NCBI RefSeq assembly: GCF_009795805.1
Contig: NZ_WTEY01000001.1
Coordinates: 186,001 to 250,000, forward strand
Reading direction: 5' to 3'
Origin: Gilliamella sp. Pra-s52
GTDB lineage: Bacteria; Pseudomonadota; Gammaproteobacteria; Enterobacterales; Orbaceae
DNA: 64,000 nucleotides
Shown: positions 53,631-64,000 of the stretch, in pieces
Numbering within the stretch: position 1 is the stretch's first letter
Layout: every line of letters begins with the position of its first letter
Translations under genes and position numbers: made by a program
The notes under the pieces: generated by a model
Seen by the model: the letters and a program-made list of their open reading frames with translations, nothing else
Database searches by the model: none
What the model was told of the DNA's origin: nothing

Positions 53631-55358
53631 ATGAAAGAGTACTCTAAGTTTAACGAAAAAGTTAAAAGTAGTCCAGCTCCAGCGACTCCTGACATGAATG
53701 AGCTATGGCACAAGATTGATTGGGTCAAAGCAACAAAGCATGTTAAAGGGTTGCAGGTACGGATTGCGAAGGCAACAATTGAAGGTGACTACCGTAAGGT
53801 TAAACGCTTACAACGGTTACTGACACGCTCAACGTATGCTAAGCAATTAGCGGTGCGGAGAGTGACAGAAAACAGAGGTAAAAGAACGGCAGGGGTTGAC
53901 AAAGTAACATGGTCAACACCAATGAGTAAATGGAAAGCCATTGCAACGCTGACAAGTAAAGGATATAAACCCATGCCATTAAGGCGAGTTTATATTCCCA
54001 AGTCTGACGGAAAGAAGCGTCCTTTGGGCATTCCGACCATGAAAGACAGAGCAATGCAAGCGCTGTACTTATTTGCTTTACAGCCTGTTGCAGAAACGAC
54101 GGCAGATAAAAACTCGTATGGTTTTCGAATCAATCGTTCAACGGCGGATGCGATAAGCCACGTGCATAAGATATTCTCACGCAAAGGGAGTCAAATGAGA
54201 CAAACGGCGCAATGGGTATTGGATGCGGATATACAGGGTTGTTTTGACCATATTAGCCATGATTGGTTAATAGCCAATATTCCGATGAATAAGCGGATAT
54301 TAGCAAAATGGTTAAAATCGGGCGTTGTGGACATGGGACAGGTCAAGCGGACGGAAGAAGGCACACCGCAAGGGGGCATCATCTCTCCGACTTTAGCGAA
54401 TATGGCACTGGATGGCATGGAGGCGCTATTAACCCAACACTTTGGTGTCATTGGGAACAGGCAACGACGTGCTAATAAGGTGTACATGGTTCGATATGCG
54501 GACGACTTTATTATCTCAGGGAGTTCGAAAGAGTTACTTGAAAATGAAGTAGTACCAAGAATTCGGGAATTTCTGAAAGAAAGGGGCTTAACCTTATCGG
54601 AAAGGAAAACACGGGTTATTAATATCGAACAAGGGTTTGATTTCTTAGGGTGGACGGTGAAATCATTTAAGGGCAAATTGTTGATTAAACCGAGTAAAAA
54701 GAATGTGAAAGCATTCTATCGCAAGGTAAAAGAAACGATAAGCAAAATGAAAATGGTTAAGCAGGACATACTTATAGCAAAATTAAATCCAATGTTAAGG
54801 GGATGAGCTAACTATCACCGTAGCATTGTCGCTAAAAAAACGTACAGTAAAGTAGACCATTTAATCTGGAAAGCGATTTGGAAATGGTGCTGTCGAAGAC
54901 ACGGTAACAGGCGGAAACGATTTGTTAAAGAGAAATACTTTACAAAGATACAAAGCAGAGACTGGATATTCGGGACACAGACAACGAATCGGCACGGCGA
55001 GAAAATATGGACTGAATTACTGATTTGCAGTAGGACAGAGATTAAACGTCATGTTAAGGTAAAATCGGAATACAACCCGTTTTTACCTGAATGGGAATTA
55101 TACGGCGAAACGTTATACCAAAAACGGATGTGCGAAGATTATTCGCACAGAAGTCAATGGCAAAGGTTGTATAAGGAACAAAAAGGGCGTTGTGGACTAT
55201 GTCATCTCCCTATCACAAAAGAGACGGGATGGCATGACCATCATATTATATACCGTGTACAGGGTGGAGATAATAAACTGGAAAACAGGGTATTATTACA
55301 CCCCGTCTGCCATACTAAAGTTCATGCACTGAAGTTAGAGGTATTGAAACCGACTTAG
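53631..55358 (+). pseudogene. Intron-encoded reverse transcriptase/maturase/HNH endonuclease with an in-frame stop
   Basis: The intact frame would encode 575 residues: reverse transcriptase (about 60-330) with RVYIPKSDGKKRPLGIPT, GTPQGGIISPTLAN and the catalytic YADD (Tyr289), maturase domain X, and a C-terminal HNH endonuclease with CGLC, DHHI, NRVLLHPVCH. Codon 392 (54804-54806) is TGA where the family has Trp in the motif LRGWANYHR. After it the same frame stays open to 55358 with no other damage. The predicted product therefore ends at 391 residues, keeping the polymerase but losing most of domain X and the endonuclease. A single base change explains it. GGAG precedes the ATG. Confidence 0.85.
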
Positions 55359-58860: not shown

Positions 58861-58931
58861 AAAGTAGATTGATTTAGATATTAAATTTTGTGAGTTTAGT
58901 ATACTAGAATTATATCGGGATTCAACCGAAA

Positions 58932-58945
58932 TGGCGCACCCGAAG
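58932..58945 (-). other. tRNA-Arg 3'-end-like fragment, candidate attachment site
   Basis: Read on the minus strand, CTTCGGGTGCGCCA looks like the end of a tRNA: acceptor strand CGGGTGC, discriminator G and CCA, as in tRNA-Arg of gammaproteobacteria (E. coli tRNA-Arg(CCG) ends CGGGCGCGCCA). The sequence before it keeps a T-loop-like TTTGAAG but the T-stem does not pair, so it is not a working tRNA. Such fragments are the usual scar at the far end of elements that integrate into tRNA genes. The rest of 58861-59082 shows no gene. Confidence 0.45.
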
Positions 58946-59082
58946 AACTTCAAATTACCTTAAAAAGATTATTTTATTCAATATGATAGGCAGGTATATA
59001 TTTTTTGATATACAAATCGTATACACATAAATATTTTTTATAATAGCAGTTAATATATTATTAGTAAATATAATATACAAAT

Positions 59083-59108
59083 AATAAAGCACTTTTAAAT
59101 GCTTTATT
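59083..59108 (-). terminator. Hairpin downstream of the coiled-coil gene
   Basis: AATAAAGCA (59083-59091) is exactly complementary to TGCTTTATT (59100-59108) around an 8-base loop, with AT-rich sequence on both sides. A weak terminator for the gene ending at 59145 is likely. Its stem sequence resembles the hairpin after the rep gene. Confidence 0.5.
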
Positions 59109-59118
59109 ACTTACACGT

Positions 59119-59140
59119 GTTTAAGTACACGTACTTAAAC
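59119..59140. repeat. 22-bp palindrome, copy 1
   Basis: GTTTAAGTAC, a central AC and the complementary GTACTTAAAC: a perfect inverted repeat five bases after the end of the coiled-coil gene. Confidence 0.8.
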
Positions 59141-59144
59141 AAAG

Positions 59145-59678
59145 CTATATACTTATTTTTTGTATATTTTTAATGTTTACTTTTTTAACTTCTTCTTTAT
59201 TACTACTTTCTTTTTTATTTTTTAATAAAAATATATCATCTTCAATTTTTAAAGTAGCATATTCATATAAATTACTTATTTCATCAATTTTACAATATGT
59301 ATTAACATTCATATTTTTACATATTTTAATGTTATTTTTACAACTAAAATACTTAAATAATTCAGCATTTTTTATACTTACATTAAAAAAATTTTTTATT
59401 AATTTTTTAGCAAAATACGCAGTTATTTTTAAACCTTTTTTTCTTTCTAATAAAATTATAGTGTAAATTATATTCAATTGATTTCTTTTTGCGTTTAAAC
59501 CCCTTTTTACTCCACCCATCTTTTTAAAAAATTTCAAATTGAATCCCAAACGTTCTTTTTTACAAAATTTAAAATGTTGTTTAAGTTCTTCATATTCTTT
59601 TTCTCTTTCTACTAATTCATTGATTTCATTATGTAATTTTTCTAAATTTTTATTGTAATCATCATATTTTTCATCCAT
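59145..59678 (-). CDS. Unknown coiled-coil protein of the integrated element (177 aa)
   Basis: I do not recognise this protein. The first half is a charged helix likely to form a coiled coil (DDYNKNLEKLHNEINELVER), and the remainder is rich in Lys, Asn and Ile with several Cys (YFSCKNNIKICKN). The start is ATG 59678, with GAGGT eight bases upstream; an ATG at 59717 lies inside palindrome copy 2 and lacks a ribosome binding site. The gene is bracketed by copies of the same 22-bp palindrome, suggesting that it is controlled through them or encodes the protein that binds them. Base composition is far more AT-rich than the core genes. Confidence 0.6.
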   Translation of the reverse strand: MDEKYDDYNKNLEKLHNEINELVEREKEYEELKQHFKFCKKERLGFNLKFFKKMGGVKRGLNAKRNQLNIIYTIILLERKKGLKITAYFAKKLIKNFFNVSIKNAELFKYFSCKNNIKICKNMNVNTYCKIDEISNLYEYATLKIEDDIFLLKNKKESSNKEEVKKVNIKNIQKISI

Positions 59679-59705
59679 ATTTTTTACCTCGTTATTATTT
59701 TGTTT

Positions 59706-59727
59706 GTTCAAGTACATGTACTTAAAC
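59706..59727. repeat. 22-bp palindrome, copy 2
   Basis: GTTCAAGTAC, AT, GTACTTAAAC: one mismatch in the arms. It lies 28 bases upstream of the coiled-coil gene start, in the promoter or leader. Confidence 0.75.
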
Positions 59728-59829
59728 AGGAACTTATTTATATAATATATGTAAAATATTTTTAATTATGTCAATAGCTAATATTATGTTTTTTAATATT
59801 TTTTTAGGTAATTGGAAGGTGAATTGACT

Positions 59830-59851
59830 GCTCAAGTACACGTACTTAAAC
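59830..59851. repeat. 22-bp palindrome, copy 3
   Basis: GCTCAAGTAC, AC, GTACTTAAAC: two changes in the left arm, the right arm identical in all three copies. It lies between the coiled-coil gene and the rep terminator. Confidence 0.75.
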
Positions 59852-59860
59852 AGTAGATTA

Positions 59861-59881
59861 AAAAGCACTATTAAGTGCTTT
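59861..59881 (-). terminator. Terminator of the rep gene
   Basis: AAAGCACT (59862-59869) and AGTGCTTT (59874-59881) form an 8-bp stem; on the minus strand a short T run follows. Confidence 0.6.
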
Positions 59882-59891
59882 ATTTGTATAT

Positions 59892-60686
59892 TTAAAGAAA
59901 TAAACCATTTTTTAAATTATTCATATAACTACTTGATTTATTTGTTTTTTGTTGTTTTTTTGTATATTTTGTTGTAGATCTACTTTTATACTCTTTTTTA
60001 TTACTACTATTTATTGCTACCAATTCTTCATTTTCCATTTTTTTTGATTTAATACTAAAAGCAATAACATCATCATCGATTTTATAACTAATATTTAAAT
60101 CACTTTTTTCATTTAATTCTTTTACTGCTTTTTCAATTACTCTTTTTTTTAAGTCAAAAGGTCTTGTATATTTGTTGCCAAGCAATAACATTTCTCTTAA
60201 TTCTTTAACTTCTATATTTCTTGCTTTTATTACTTTATATTGTACTAATAATTCGTATAATCTAATGCTATATACGCTTTTAAATGTACTTATATTACTT
60301 AACTTATATTTAGTAAATTTGTTTTTTAAATCAAATAGATATGGAATTATTTGATCTGAAAAAACTAATTCTGCAGTTGCTTCATTGTCAACATAAGCTT
60401 TTGCTTGTAGCCATCTAAATGTGATTTTTTTTTGCTCATTTTTTAAAATTATAGACTTATTATACAAGTCATCCAAACCGTCTTTTATTGCTTTATATAT
60501 ACTGTTTTTATCTATCTTTTTAAACTGTTTAGCAAATTCGCTTGCTTTTATAACAACTGTTTTATTATTGTCACTTGCTGGGTTTAACTTACTAATAGCA
60601 AATAATATTATTCTCTGTTCTGCTAGTGTTAAATTATAACTAGCATTTACTAAATCGTTGCTTTTATATACTATTAAATCGCTCAT
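59892..60686 (-). CDS. Plasmid replication initiator, Rep_3 (RepB/RepE) family
   Basis: A 264-residue initiator protein with the two winged-helix domains of iteron-binding Rep proteins. The N-terminal signature is LVNASYNLTLAEQRIILFAISKLN (residues about 12-35, shown here only in part by LTLAEQRIILFA); the second domain has ISTFKSVYSIRLYELLVQYK followed by LREMLLLGNKY. The C-terminal 40 residues are basic and Ser/Asn-rich. Such proteins bind iterons to start replication and limit copy number. AAAGGAGAT precedes the ATG, and five iterons lie 125-222 bases upstream, so initiator and origin form a complete unit. Confidence 0.87.
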   Translation of the reverse strand: MSDLIVYKSNDLVNASYNLTLAEQRIILFAISKLNPASDNNKTVVIKASEFAKQFKKIDKNSIYKAIKDGLDDLYNKSIILKNEQKKITFRWLQAKAYVDNEATAELVFSDQIIPYLFDLKNKFTKYKLSNISTFKSVYSIRLYELLVQYKVIKARNIEVKELREMLLLGNKYTRPFDLKKRVIEKAVKELNEKSDLNISYKIDDDVIAFSIKSKKMENEELVAINSSNKKEYKSRSTTKYTKKQQKTNKSSSYMNNLKNGLFL

Positions 60687-60717
60687 TATTATCTCCTTTT
60701 TTATTATTATATTTATT

Positions 60718-60745
60718 TATTTAATTAGCTTTTGCTGTTTGTCAA
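60718..60745 (-). promoter_or_regulatory. Promoter of the rep gene
   Basis: On the minus strand a perfect TTGACA (60745-60740), 16 bases, then TAAATA (60723-60718), between the iterons and the rep start. Confidence 0.5.
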
Positions 60746-60810
60746 CACGCATACTTTAAAAATAATCGTTTTTTATAAAATAATCCAAAAAAAATGAATA
60801 TTTTTTTTAA

Positions 60811-60908
60811 CATTCGTTTTGTCGTTCCACATTCTTTTTGTCGTTTTTAGCATTCTTTTTGTCGTTTTTTACATTCGAAATGTCGTTATTTACATTCTTT
60901 TTGTCGTC
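60811..60908. repeat. Five iterons: plasmid-type replication origin
   Basis: The 16-bp unit CATTCNNNNTGTCGTT starts at 60811, 60830, 60851, 60872 and 60893 (spacings 19, 21, 21 and 21 bp, about two helical turns). Copies 2 and 3 are identical; copy 5 ends in C, and copy 4 has GAAA in the middle. The array lies upstream of the Rep_3 gene next to a very AT-rich stretch (60750-60810) that could melt first. I see no clear DnaA box nearby. Confidence 0.88.
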
Positions 60909-61321
60909 AATGAATTTTGTAACATATTGATATTATTGATTAATTTAGCTGAAAAACAAGCCGAAAATAAGAAAATAATAAAATAATAAAGTAAAACAAG
61001 AATAATTTTAATAAAGATTTTTAAAAACCTGTAGATTTTTAAAAATAAAAAAGACTGGTCAAGGGATTGGGTGCTTGGCAGCACACACAAAACCATAGCA
61101 AGCAAGCTTGCTTGGACTTGCGCTAAAAAAGACTTGTGTAGAACATTTAAAAATCTGCTGATTTTTAAATCAATAAGCTAAATAAATAAAAAATGTTTTT
61201 GGAAAGGGATTATATGTATGTGCTAAATATAAGTTAAGTAATATAAGTACATAAGTAACGTGCCATAAAAAACAAAGTAATTTTTATAATTACTAACTAT
61301 ATAATTTTTATGAATTTGGTA
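60909..61321. other. Noncoding AT-rich region with repeats beside the origin
   Basis: No gene is visible. It contains the perfect 16-bp palindrome CAAGCAAGCTTGCTTG (61099-61114), the unit GATTTTTAAAA near 61016 and 61036, and the 11-bp-arm palindrome ATTTAAAAATC/GATTTTTAAAT (61145-61170) with loop TGCT. A less AT-rich core (61045-61135) between these repeats may be a second functional site such as a transfer or single-strand origin; that is speculation. Confidence 0.45.
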
Positions 61322-61349
61322 TTGACAATTCAAATATATTTACTATAAG
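61322..61349 (+). promoter_or_regulatory. Strong-looking promoter without an adjacent gene
   Basis: A perfect TTGACA (61322-61327), a 16-base spacer and TATAAG (61344-61349). The next terminator is only about 70 bases downstream. Confidence 0.55.
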
Positions 61350-61355
61350 TATAAG

Positions 61356-61446
61356 TAATAATAATTTTATCTCTCAAACTTATTATTATTATTATGATAG
61401 AAAATGTACTTTTTTAACCAAAACCCTTTTTTTAAAGGGTTTTTTA
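61356..61446 (+). ncRNA. Candidate small RNA of about 90 bases
   Basis: The interval runs from the start expected for the 61322-61349 promoter to a rho-independent terminator. It has no plausible protein gene, only a seven-codon frame (61394-61417, ATG to TAA) without a good ribosome binding site. Small RNAs near plasmid origins often control replication. Alternatively it is an attenuated leader of the genes starting at 61789. Confidence 0.4.
61421..61446 (+). terminator. Terminator of the candidate small RNA
   Basis: AAACCCTTT (61421-61429), TTTT and AAAGGGTTT (61434-61442) followed by T. Confidence 0.7.
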
Positions 61447-61673
61447 TTGTCTAAAATAAAAACAACTCTCCAACTTACCATTATTTTACAAAAAATACAA
61501 CAAAAATAAGTTCAATCGCTCAATAAATAATCAATCAGTTTTGTCTTTTTTAAAAATAACAATTATATTTAAGTATAAACTTTTATTTATTACAAATAAA
61601 GAAAAACCGATAACTATAGCATATAAAAGTTTAAAAAAATACACTGAATAGCACAAAATGCTAAAAAACTAAC

Positions 61674-61745
61674 TTTACAATTTAACCAGATTTTATATAA
61701 CTATAAGTGAGAAAACAAAATAATGTAACTAAAACAAAAAGTTAC
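61674..61745 (+). promoter_or_regulatory. Candidate promoter and operator of the three-gene element operon
   Basis: TTTACA (61674-61679), 16 bases, TATAAC (61696-61701). Downstream lies the inverted repeat GTAACT (61725-61730) / AGTTAC (61740-61745), a possible operator. The interval 61447-61673 shows nothing else. Confidence 0.4.
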
Positions 61746-61788
61746 GCAGTTTTTCTAAATAATAATAATTAATATAAGGAATTGAGTT

Positions 61789-62223
61789 ATGTCAAAAGAA
61801 ATAATGAAAGTTAAAAAAACAACTAAAAAAGCAACTAAAGCAGTAGTAAATAAATTAATTGATATAAAAATTAAAGTAAAAGAAGATTTGAGTAGAACGA
61901 TTGGTGCATTGAGAATAGCAGGTGTACCAATTGCTTACACATACAGCAACAGATCCGATGCACGTGTATGTTCAAAAATCGAATTTATTAAAAATTATCC
62001 ATACTCTGATGGTTCAAGAAGATATCACAAAGTTGTTGTTCCATCTGGATCGGTTTTTATTATAAGAGATTTTGAAACAAAGCAACTTAAGTATTTAAAA
62101 AAGTGGATTAATGAAGAAAAAATTGAATATTCAAGAGTTTACAAGAAAAGAAATGTTGTACAAACAGAGCAAGCAACACAAGTAGAAGAACAAGTAGAAC
62201 AAACAACAACAGCAACTATTTAA
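61789..62223 (+). CDS. Unknown basic protein of the integrated element (144 aa)
   Basis: Not recognised. The N-terminal 40 residues are strongly basic (KVKKTTKKATKAVVNKLIDI), the middle looks like a folded domain with AYTYSNRSDARVCSKIEF and HKVVVPSGSVFIIRDF, and the tail is a Gln/Thr/Glu-rich, probably disordered repeat (EQATQVEEQVEQTTT). DNA or RNA binding would fit the charge, but there is no motif to prove it. AAGGAATTGAG precedes the ATG. It is first in a three-gene operon ending with a primase. Confidence 0.65.
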   Translation: MSKEIMKVKKTTKKATKAVVNKLIDIKIKVKEDLSRTIGALRIAGVPIAYTYSNRSDARVCSKIEFIKNYPYSDGSRRYHKVVVPSGSVFIIRDFETKQLKYLKKWINEEKIEYSRVYKKRNVVQTEQATQVEEQVEQTTTATI

Positions 62224-62229
62224 TAATAA

Positions 62230-62249
62230 AAGCCCCATTACTGGGGCTT
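62230..62249 (+). terminator. GC-rich hairpin between the first two element genes
   Basis: AAGCCCC pairs with GGGGCTT around ATTACT. No T run follows, so partial termination or an RNA-processing role is possible. Confidence 0.5.
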
Positions 62250-62279
62250 ATAAGAATATAAGAATAAAAGAGGTAAGCA

Positions 62280-62576
62280 ATGAAAATAGAAAATTTAATT
62301 AATGATATAAAAACATACAACAGCTTAAAAGATAAAGAAAATCACACAGTTAGAGAAAATAACATATTAGAGAGTATAAAAAATACAATAAATATAAAGT
62401 TATTAAGTTTAACAAATTTCATAATCGACAATGATTATAAAATATACAAGATTGACTTAGTAAACTTAAACAAAGCTGAAAAAGAAGACAATTTATTACT
62501 TTATATTAATGTTTTATATAACATTATTTTAAAAAACAGTAGAGTACATTACAAAGCATTAAATAAAAGTATATAA
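62280..62576 (+). CDS. Unknown small protein of the integrated element (98 aa)
   Basis: Not recognised. It is predicted to be mostly helical, rich in Asn, Lys and Ile (NLINDIKTYNSLKDKENHTV), without signal peptide or membrane segment. A good AGAGGT lies six bases before the ATG, and it sits 32 bases before the primase gene on the same strand, supporting a real gene. Confidence 0.55.
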   Translation: MKIENLINDIKTYNSLKDKENHTVRENNILESIKNTINIKLLSLTNFIIDNDYKIYKIDLVNLNKAEKEDNLLLYINVLYNIILKNSRVHYKALNKSI

Positions 62577-62608
62577 ACAACAACAATAATAAAAAAGAGG
62601 ATTAAAAA

Positions 62609-63544
62609 ATGGAATATGAAAAGTATGAAAATCAAATAGATACGTTGTTAGCAAAAAAATACAGAATTACCACCATTAATAGAACTAATAATTGTGTTAA
62701 TACAAAAATATATAATAGTTCAGAAATTAAAGAATTTAAAATATATAATGAGTTATACAATTTAAATAAAAATGGTTCAGATATTTATATAACACCGCTT
62801 AGTAATTATTGTTATTATTTAGTAATTGATGATATAAAAACAGAAGAAGCAGTTAATGAACTAAAAATGGAATTTGGAAAACCTATACTTCGTTTAGAAA
62901 CTTCTGAAAAAAATTATCAATTTATTTATACAGTTAGCAAAAAAGAAGCGAATCAAAAGCTTGCTAATTTTTTTGTGCGAGCAATGAACAAAAAATATGG
63001 TGATCCGAATTTTTCTGGAGCTGAACATGCATTTCGAGTTGCTGGATTTAGAAATAAAAAAGAGGGTAGAAATGATTTTTTAGTCAGAGCAATTAAAGAA
63101 GATGATATACGTTTTAAAGTTTTTAATTTTCTAAAAATTATGGATGAAAATGAATATATTCAAAATTGCATTAAAAATCCAAACATTTTACTTACTACAA
63201 ACAATACTAACAATAATAACGATATTGAAATTAACGAAATAAAACAAGTGGATAGAAATAGTGAAGAATATTTAGAAATTAGTAAATTCTTTAATAAAGA
63301 AAAAAATCGATTTATAGGTTTAGCTAAAAAACAAAAATGGGTTTTAGATGATAGTGTAATTGATTTTAACGCAATAAAAAACACGCTGAATAAATATTCA
63401 GAATATAAGAATATTTGTGCAGCTGTTTTAGATGATAATAAAAGAGAACATACAGAAGATTACACAACAAGAACTATTAACAAAGTTTTGGATAAATTAG
63501 AAGAAGAACACAAAAAAGAAAATAAAAAAGGTTTTAGTATATAA
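62609..63544 (+). CDS. RepB-like DNA primase
   Basis: A 311-residue protein resembling plasmid/phage RepB-type archaeo-eukaryotic primases such as the RSF1010 RepB' domain. The arrangement IYITPLSNYCYYLVIDDI (catalytic acidic pair at about 74-75), PILRLETSEKNYQFIYTV and KYGDPNFSGAEHAFRVAGFRNKK (about 131-153) matches that family. The C-terminal third is a charged helical region of unknown role. It would prime DNA synthesis of the element from its own origin. AGAGGA precedes the ATG and a strong terminator follows. Confidence 0.68.
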   Translation: MEYEKYENQIDTLLAKKYRITTINRTNNCVNTKIYNSSEIKEFKIYNELYNLNKNGSDIYITPLSNYCYYLVIDDIKTEEAVNELKMEFGKPILRLETSEKNYQFIYTVSKKEANQKLANFFVRAMNKKYGDPNFSGAEHAFRVAGFRNKKEGRNDFLVRAIKEDDIRFKVFNFLKIMDENEYIQNCIKNPNILLTTNNTNNNNDIEINEIKQVDRNSEEYLEISKFFNKEKNRFIGLAKKQKWVLDDSVIDFNAIKNTLNKYSEYKNICAAVLDDNKREHTEDYTTRTINKVLDKLEEEHKKENKKGFSI

Positions 63545-63564
63545 AAATTAACCTGTTTTTAAGT

Positions 63565-63592
63565 AAAAGCTCCAATTTTTTGGAGCTTTTTT
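63565..63592 (+). terminator. Terminator of the element operon
   Basis: AAAAGCTCCAA (63565-63575) pairs perfectly with TTGGAGCTTTT (63580-63590) around four T, followed by T. It can also serve the convergent integrase. Confidence 0.8.
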
Positions 63593-63596
63593 ATTA

Positions 63597-64000
63597 TTAG
63601 TACAATATAGTAATATTCTTTTTATATTTATTAATAACACTATTACTATTACTATAGTTAAAATCAAAATTATAATTTTTAGTGTGTTTTATTTTATGCG
63701 TTGCTGTTGCTTCAAACTTTCTACCGCCACCGCCACCCCGCTGGTAGTTGCCGTAATAAGTTTGTGACTTATCGACACGATGTCCTAAAAAAGCAGCTAT
63801 AGTATCTTCATCCGTTTTTGTGCGCTTTAAGTCACTTGCAACTTTATGTCTAAAACTATACAAACTTACAGCAGTTCCATATTTTCTATAAAAAAATTTG
63901 CTTAGACTTTTATAAGTTTTTTCATTTTGCTCTATTTTATAAACACCGCCATTTTTAAGTTGTTGTCTAAAAACATTTTTATAAAATTCATTATGTAATT
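63597..64000 (-). CDS. Tyrosine-recombinase integrase, C-terminal part (N-terminus beyond the window)
   Basis: The frame is open from the window edge and encodes about 133 residues of the catalytic domain of a phage-type integrase. Visible are SLYSFRHKVASDLK (box II), AAFLGHRVDKSQTYYG (the third His and the nucleophilic Tyr). The usual His of HxxR is Tyr here (YSFR). A long basic tail with five glycines (QRGGGGGRKFEATATHK) and an Asn-rich end follow. Family knowledge says such enzymes integrate DNA at tRNA 3' ends. The in-frame ATG at 63863 is inside the domain and is not the start. Confidence 0.82.
   Translation of the reverse strand, partial: LHNEFYKNVFRQQLKNGGVYKIEQNEKTYKSLSKFFYRKYGTAVSLYSFRHKVASDLKRTKTDEDTIAAFLGHRVDKSQTYYGNYQRGGGGGRKFEATATHKIKHTKNYNFDFNYSNSNSVINKYKKNITILY

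Follow-up and report, generated by a model that had tools for sequence, protein, structure and literature searches.

A 13-kb island at a tRNA-Arg gene of Gilliamella sp. Pra-s52 with its own replicon, a MobK-type relaxase candidate and a TraY-like channel gene

Next to serS, the genome of Gilliamella sp. Pra-s52 passes into A+T-rich DNA with plasmid-type replication genes, which raises the question of what kind of element has settled there and by which route it could reach other cells. The stretch analyzed, here called the window, is 64,000 nucleotides long (positions 186001-250000 of a 470-kb contig), and the sequence continuing past it (L008) was followed in extended coordinates, which equal the L008 position plus 61999. 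The element is an island of 13,259 bp running from 58930 to extended coordinate 72188, with 8.2 kb of it beyond the window at the far end. Judged from its genes, it is probably an integrative mobilizable element (IME) that has a Rep_3/iteron replicon, travels by means of an IncI-like helper and contributes a TraY of its own to the journey. IMEs with a replicon are a known kind of element; the pairing of this relaxase type, related to MobK of plasmid pIGRK, with a channel part was not found in the paper listings searched.

Borders, target site and replicon of the island

There is good support for an integrated element that has a plasmid replicon of its own, from att repeats, a tRNA target, an integrase, a Rep_3 initiator with iterons and empty sites in relatives. 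A sequence-only reading of the window had proposed such an element, with its own origin, and this part of the proposal stands together with the A+T shift, the tRNA-like scar, the initiator, the iterons and the RepB-like primase that it described; the island is about twice the 6-7 kb then estimated, and the gene taken for its integrase is a different protein.

The GC fraction per kb is 0.19-0.26 from 59001 onward vs 0.34-0.43 in the preceding ten kb, and the low-GC block, which begins after serS and reaches L008 position ~10,190, includes a few GC-richer stretches in the TraY and integrase genes. A repeat and tRNA search delimited both borders by a 16-bp direct repeat, AATGGCGCACCCGAAG. Its left copy (attL core, 58930-58945) is a tRNA-derived scar that repeats the tRNA-Arg(TCG) 3' end and lies where relatives carry the 3' end of that tRNA; the right copy (attR, extended 72189-72204, L008:10190-10205) overlaps the 3' end of the intact tRNA-Arg(TCG) itself (extended 72191-72267, minus strand), which forms the far border. 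This tRNA is the first of four clustered tRNA genes, three for Arg and one for Ser, and alaS-, recX- and recA-like genes follow the island (translations read by eye). Adjoining the tRNA is the integrase gene (402 residues, extended 70784-71992, minus strand), with arm-binding, central and catalytic domains, and beside it an AlpA/Xis-like gene (extended 70251-70739, minus strand), both ~7 kb past the gene at the end of the window. The 3'-partial recombinase at the window end had been regarded as the integrase of an element ending near 64000, a possibility ruled out by the continuation sequence: island genes, and no core genes, stand immediately beyond 64000 and continue to the far border, where the expected integrase and intact tRNA-Arg do occur. 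Integrase and att repeats thus bound a discrete element, as in IMEs, which is present as one copy in its own genome; a DNA search of the plasmid collection returned no relative of the part that lies in the window.

The integration site was compared across the genus, where serS is present in 33 of 35 genomes; the site was inspected in 31 of these, 30 relatives plus the own genome, the other two not being fetched. On the serS side the site is empty in 21 of the 30 relatives, in line with the empty site that had been anticipated. The 3' end of tRNA-Arg(TCG) lies 135-157 bp before the serS start in 19 of them by exact match, and in two more (L036, L040), where the exact pattern fails, ARAGORN places the tRNA in that position; the equivalent point of the left repeat in the own genome is 151 bp before serS. 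In a further genome (L023) tRNA-Arg(ACG) adjoins serS and the TCG copy was not found. The tRNA-Arg(TCG) is 0.8-1.4 kb from serS in five relatives and no tRNA occurs within 1.5 kb of it in three; given these eight (L017, L024, L029, L030, L033, L034, L035 and L037), the serS/tRNA-Arg site, mostly empty across the genus, is therefore a target of repeated insertion. The block is not conserved there in all relatives, its TraY gene being matched in only three of the 35 genomes.

The replicon consists of a Rep_3 initiator gene (264 residues, 59892-60686, minus strand; Pfam Rep3_N PF01051, E 5.9e-39, and Rep3_C PF21205, E 2.8e-13) and, upstream of it, five 16-bp iterons, RCATTCKNNNTGTCGT (60810-60907, plus strand), spaced by 19, 21, 21 and 21 bp, for which 100 shuffles of the window gave a mean of 0.00. 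An initiator with adjacent iterons identifies a Rep_3 iteron replicon, and the iterons are a probable vegetative origin (oriV). A RepB-type primase gene (311 residues, 62609-63544, plus strand; PF16793, E 6.3e-15) follows.

The MobK-type relaxase candidate and its upstream region

The gene at 63597 that had been read as the integrase encodes a second tyrosine recombinase, TR2 (379 residues, 63597 to extended 64736, L008:1598-2737, minus strand), of which only the 3' part (63597-64000) lies in the window. Among family models it gives no more than a weak, sub-threshold hit to Phage_integrase. A tblastn search against plasmids gave 38 records at E<=1e-3 (best E 7e-39), the best 20 of which are small cryptic plasmids of 2.3-3.8 kb, and at E<=1 pIGRK (NC_011405.1, 2,348 bp) was matched with E 9e-5 among the best 60 of 63 records. 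On one plasmid of 2,345 bp the TR2 relative is the only annotated gene and the only frame of at least 90 residues. The relaxase of pIGRK, MobK, is tyrosine-recombinase-like and needs its Y179 for nicking and transfer, and the accessible part of the same 2021 paper names only three relaxases of this type, TcpM, MpsA and MobK (PMC8152469).

By profile score and tree TR2 belongs with MobK, and it is on these grounds a relaxase candidate. A profile built from three TR2 sequences and five small-plasmid relatives, with MobK left out, scored pIGRK MobK at 84.6 bits and three further plasmid relatives at 81-132 bits, and none of seven controls (the integrases of two elements and five recombinases from the own genome) above 9.2 bits. 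The genomic controls came from five of 11 recombinase loci of the own genome (L069-L079), the other six giving no frame under the motif filter; one of these six, L076, is the island integrase and was added separately. With a profile of the three TR2 sequences alone MobK still reached 57.6 bits, the sole control reported being the island integrase at 11.0 bits. In a tree of 19 proteins, which gave long-branch warnings, TR2, the small-plasmid proteins and the MobK proteins were split from the controls with support 98/99, the order inside their group being resolved in part. TR2 thereby stands nearer to MobK than integrases or chromosomal recombinases do, and it carries the RK(H/Y)RH pentad and tyrosine nucleophile of the MobK group: in an alignment of 12 proteins (three from Gilliamella and nine chosen from the 63 plasmid records at E<=1), R195, K225, Y293, R296, H319 and Y328 of TR2 are invariant in all 12, the pentad being our assignment, and Y328 aligns with MobK Y179. 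TR2 differs from pIGRK MobK by ~150 additional N-terminal residues, common to other small plasmids, and by its location on an integrative element.

The same catalytic residues would be present in a recombinase for multimer resolution or inversion (Xer/shufflon-like) inherited from a former plasmid, in which case the element would be an integrative plasmid devoid of transfer function, and a near-perfect 24-bp palindrome, TGTTTAAGTACACGTACTTAAACA, found in three copies in the island (59118-59141, 59705-59728 and 59829-59852), could supply its recombination sites. This explanation is considered quite improbable, since TR2 groups with a proven relaxase and not with the control integrases and recombinases, the palindrome was not found in a sibling element that has TR2 (L009, described below), and the 2,345-bp plasmid has the TR2 relative as its sole annotated gene. 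A phage source of TR2 was ruled out as well, since none of 50,697 phage records matched it at E<=0.01.

A search for TR2 in 197 genomes drawn from the order gave, besides the own genome, three matches that are weak and partial (E 1.8e-5 to 7.8e-4), and a scan of genome contigs gave four loci, one on a contig of another Gilliamella (G033) and three on 3.1-3.6-kb contigs of other Enterobacteriaceae. All 38 plasmid records with a TR2 relative at E<=1e-3 are labelled non-mobilizable, as is pIGRK, whose mobilization is published; plasmid typing may therefore miss modules of this kind.

Two related elements of the genus are informative. The G033 contig (6,069 bp) breaks off inside the primase gene on one side and 0.3 kb beyond TraY on the other; for this reason the remainder of that copy was not found, the best integrases of G033 being only 43-45% identical to that of the island. 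Over the shared part TR2 is 94% identical, the non-coding region upstream of it has 96% mean column identity, 243 of 273 primase positions are identical and TraY is 67% identical. The second, a sibling of 8.6 kb in G006 (L009:9717-18303, contig C1), is inserted at tRNA-Lys with an 18-bp att repeat. It shares with the island a Rep_3 gene, TR2 (51%), an AlpA-like gene, the integrase (45%), the gene order and the conserved block upstream of TR2, and it differs by a DnaQ-like exonuclease gene upstream of TR2 and by a frame in the primase position that matches no family. Repeats of ~20 bp are visible by eye upstream of its rep gene. An exonuclease gene also directly precedes the MobK-like gene of a pIGRK relative (L068).

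The 1.07 kb of non-coding DNA upstream of TR2 (extended 64737-65802) is a probable origin of transfer (oriT). In pIGRK the oriT region, upstream of mobK, contains four AGCGA motifs (PMC8152469), vs 0.20 expected. Before TR2 there are seven vs 1.2 expected, a number reached by none of 300 shuffles, and three vs 0.34 before the TR2 gene of the G006 sibling (again 0 of 300 shuffles); the G033 copy has four (p 0.003) and is not independent of the island. In these four regions the motif occurs only on the relaxase strand and the reverse motif is absent. Eleven 5-mers occur three or more times in each of the island, G006 and pIGRK regions; of these AGCGA had the highest minimum enrichment, and it occurs at most once in each of eight control stretches of non-coding DNA from both elements, two of them taken on both strands. 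Six of the 12 upstream regions tested were enriched at p<=0.003. In addition, a block of 324 bp (extended 65160-65483, L008:3161-3484) is conserved with the G006 sibling, with a score of 86 vs 48 for the best of 100 shuffles. Both this region and the adjacent TraY gene lie outside the window and were thus invisible to the sequence-only reading.

The TraY protein and the proposed mode of transfer

Immediately upstream of the probable oriT with respect to TR2 stands a gene for a DotA/TraY protein of 889 residues (extended 65803-68472, L008:3804-6473, minus strand), which scores 363 bits against TIGR04346 (curated cut-off 100). It is the only channel gene recognized in the island, which, as expected of an IME, has no complete mating channel of its own. 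The own genome holds no second match to it, and at E<=0.001 the genus provides matches only in G033, at the identity given above, and in G029, a distant protein (27-29%) inside a different conjugation region. In IncI exclusion TraY is the donor protein recognized by the recipient factor ExcA (PMC8923210), which in R64 recognizes the central region of TraY (cited in PMC12365149). The MobK relative has as its neighbor the single channel component on which exclusion in IncI systems depends.

The divergence from the G033 protein is concentrated in the middle of TraY. The nonsynonymous distance (dN) is 0.02 for residues 1-165, 0.69 for 166-340, 0.54 for 341-560, 0.17 for 561-640, 0.15 for 641-760 and 0.05 for 761-889, compared with 0.03 for TR2, and the synonymous distance (dS) at the two ends is 0.46 and 0.49.

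These parts suggest the following mode of transfer. The island would excise at its tRNA-Arg(TCG) att repeats to give a circle of 13.26 kb, which may be able to replicate from the iterons by means of the Rep_3 protein and the primase. By homology with MobK of pIGRK, TR2 would nick the oriT in the non-coding region before its own gene, and the nicked strand, again by homology, would exit through the channel of another, IncI-like element (MPF_I, type IVB). There the DotA/TraY of the island might replace or join the TraY of the helper and alter the exclusion identity of the channel, and the island could in this way enter cells that already hold the helper.

Such logic would be that of SGI1 in IncC channels, built here from unrelated parts. 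Excision, replication and transfer of SGI1 take place with an IncC helper. Its presumed relaxase is tyrosine-recombinase-like, with oriT upstream of the gene, and a TraG encoded by SGI1 itself enters the helper channel, by which IncC exclusion is disabled (PMC9299015, PMC5389848 and PMC7826253); a differing view is also reported there, an earlier study having found the tra genes of SGI1 not essential for its transfer (PMC9299015). The SGI1 family and the island have in common an integrase with an excision factor, an own replicon, a presumed or candidate relaxase of tyrosine-recombinase type with oriT (in the island a probable one) upstream, and an own copy of the channel subunit recognized by exclusion. 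In other respects they differ: SGI1 inserts at the 3' end of trmE and not in tRNA-Arg(TCG), which places the island outside the SGI1 family, its replicon has an IncN-related RepA instead of Rep_3 with iterons, and it carries TraN, TraH and TraG of the IncC channel vs the single TraY of an IncI-like channel. The island, at 13 kb, has a MobK-type candidate with no MpsB-like partner identified, and no resistance gene among the families matched. As far as anatomy allows function to be inferred, it appears to hold a counterpart of each SGI1 part, drawn from other protein families and suited to an IncI-like channel. A search of titles and abstract starts recognized no report of a MobK-type relaxase together with TraY in an integrative element, which is weak evidence of absence because the coverage was limited to open-access literature.

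Several observations weigh against this reading. The element is known from the assembly alone, which cannot show a circle, and no coupling protein was recognized among the scanned island frames. A helper of IncI type was not found in the own genome by TraY and TraU-like searches, and in only one of the 35 genus genomes, G029 (L051, contig C1), which has a chromosomal IncI-like tra region with TraQ (153 bits), TraW (463) and TraY (501); its TraU-like protein of 1003 residues, so named from its length and its position among tra genes (NCBIfam gives nothing, and P-loop_TraG is hit only weakly, below the cut-off), has no match in the own genome. Of the upstream regions tested for AGCGA, five had no significant excess and one reached only p 0.02, and beyond this motif the DNA upstream of TR2 is not alignable with that of pIGRK, the comparison being no better than shuffles (70 of 100 as good; 15 of 100 for the G006 region). 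In the middle of TraY dS is also raised (1.06 and 1.46), and because of this the divergence there may reflect an allele replacement without selection. Finally, TraY is not essential to elements of this sort, since the G006 sibling has TR2 and the upstream block but lacks TraY.

The missing helper, together with the fact that the island is known from the assembly as one genomic copy, would also fit a commonplace tRNA-borne genomic island or integrated plasmid that has lost its mobility. Little probability is assigned to such an immobile remnant: the principal genes are open and the att repeats intact, a close partial copy exists in G033, whose own serS site is empty, and the G006 sibling has intact borders at tRNA-Lys.

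TraY itself could alternatively be a device for exclusion or helper interference that blocks an incoming IncI-like channel, or the leftover of a decayed integrative and conjugative element. This is unlikely, even if no further channel gene was recognized in the island and two lipoprotein-like genes lie close to TraY, one of which weakly resembles an EexN-type exclusion lipoprotein (E 0.0095, below the cut-off). The protein is of full length and its ends are constrained, and it therefore fits poorly with a leftover; in IncI exclusion the recipient factor is ExcA, TraY being the target in the donor (PMC8923210); and an island of Escherichia coli has TraY together with a relaxase and PilV. The two lipoprotein-like genes (extended 69556-69873 and 69893-70201, plus strand; 105 and 102 residues, L008:7557-8202) stand in tandem and are related to each other.

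The E. coli island came to light through the best plasmid match of the island TraY, on CP088875, where 68% of the protein is matched at 41% identity and the neighbors are integrase, AlpA, RepL and MobA/MobL genes. Among 5,426 complete E. coli genomes, 133 have chromosomal DNA close to that TraY gene (80-100% identity) and none has it on a plasmid, and 132 of the 133 matches span at least 80% of the gene length. In the one opened (NZ_AP021963.1, L088) the island is located near mtfA and tRNA-Ser, and the stretch encodes a helix-turn-helix regulator, RepL, TraY, a lipoprotein, a MobQ relaxase, a 306-bp frame annotated as TraD, a BfpA-type pilin and a PilV tip adhesin, with no other annotated channel gene in ~29 kb, where many frames are hypothetical. 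Like the Gilliamella island it combines an integrase, a helix-turn-helix (AlpA-like) regulator, a replication gene, a relaxase and DotA/TraY; it is larger (~29 kb seen), its relaxase is MobQ and its replicon RepL, and the pilin, tip adhesin and short TraD-annotated frame are additional. TraY relatives were found in 3,917 plasmid records, 657 of which are not labelled conjugative, and in three of the latter that were opened no other named tra gene occurs in the stretch seen, the gene tables being incomplete. Two of these three, plasmids of 15.5 and 37 kb labelled non-mobilizable (NZ_AP027525.1, L056, and NZ_CP135264.1, L057), encode ParA, N-6 methylases and DotA/TraY, with no other named tra gene.

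A broader proposal, to which we give somewhat less than an even chance, is that TraY carriers without a TraY operon form a widespread unnamed class of hitchhikers that parasitize IncI-like (type IVB) conjugation by swapping the part recognized by exclusion. The class would owe nothing to SGI1 in its origin, its relaxases (of MobK type in Gilliamella and MobQ in E. coli) and replicons being unrelated, and its TraY would be diverging where exclusion proteins read it. If the reading of the Gilliamella island is right, the strategy of SGI1, an own channel subunit that evades exclusion, would have evolved more than once, also for channels of IncI and IncL/M type. The island offers a small, testable system in a bee symbiont.

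Minor features of the island and its surroundings

The remaining genes of the island have no assigned role. Closest to attL is a gene for a protein of 190 residues and unknown function (59145-59717, minus strand) with no family match above the cut-off, around which the three copies of the 24-bp palindrome are arranged; the palindrome is possibly an operator or partition site and occurs at no other place in the window, L008, L009, L050 or L051. Between the iterons and the primase gene are two genes of unknown function on the plus strand, one for 144 residues (61789-62223; no Pfam match and a weak PHROG of unknown function, E 2.4e-4) and one for 98 residues (62280-62576; Pfam and PHROG scans). 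Past TraY, genes for 81 (extended 68713-68958) and 107 residues (extended 69208-69531), both on the plus strand, precede the lipoprotein-like pair.

Two Rep_3 fragments were rejected as siblings of the island, one in G003 by its internal stops and one in G033 (contig C83), a short frame beside a reading that resembles an insertion sequence transposase. In the conjugation region of G029 there are also a relaxase and a coupling protein, which score above the cut-offs of MobB and MobC models of Bacteroides type. Outside the island, at 53631-55358 of the window, frames that on reading resemble a group II intron reverse transcriptase (391 residues) and then an HNH-type protein (76 residues) follow one another, perhaps as an interrupted gene.

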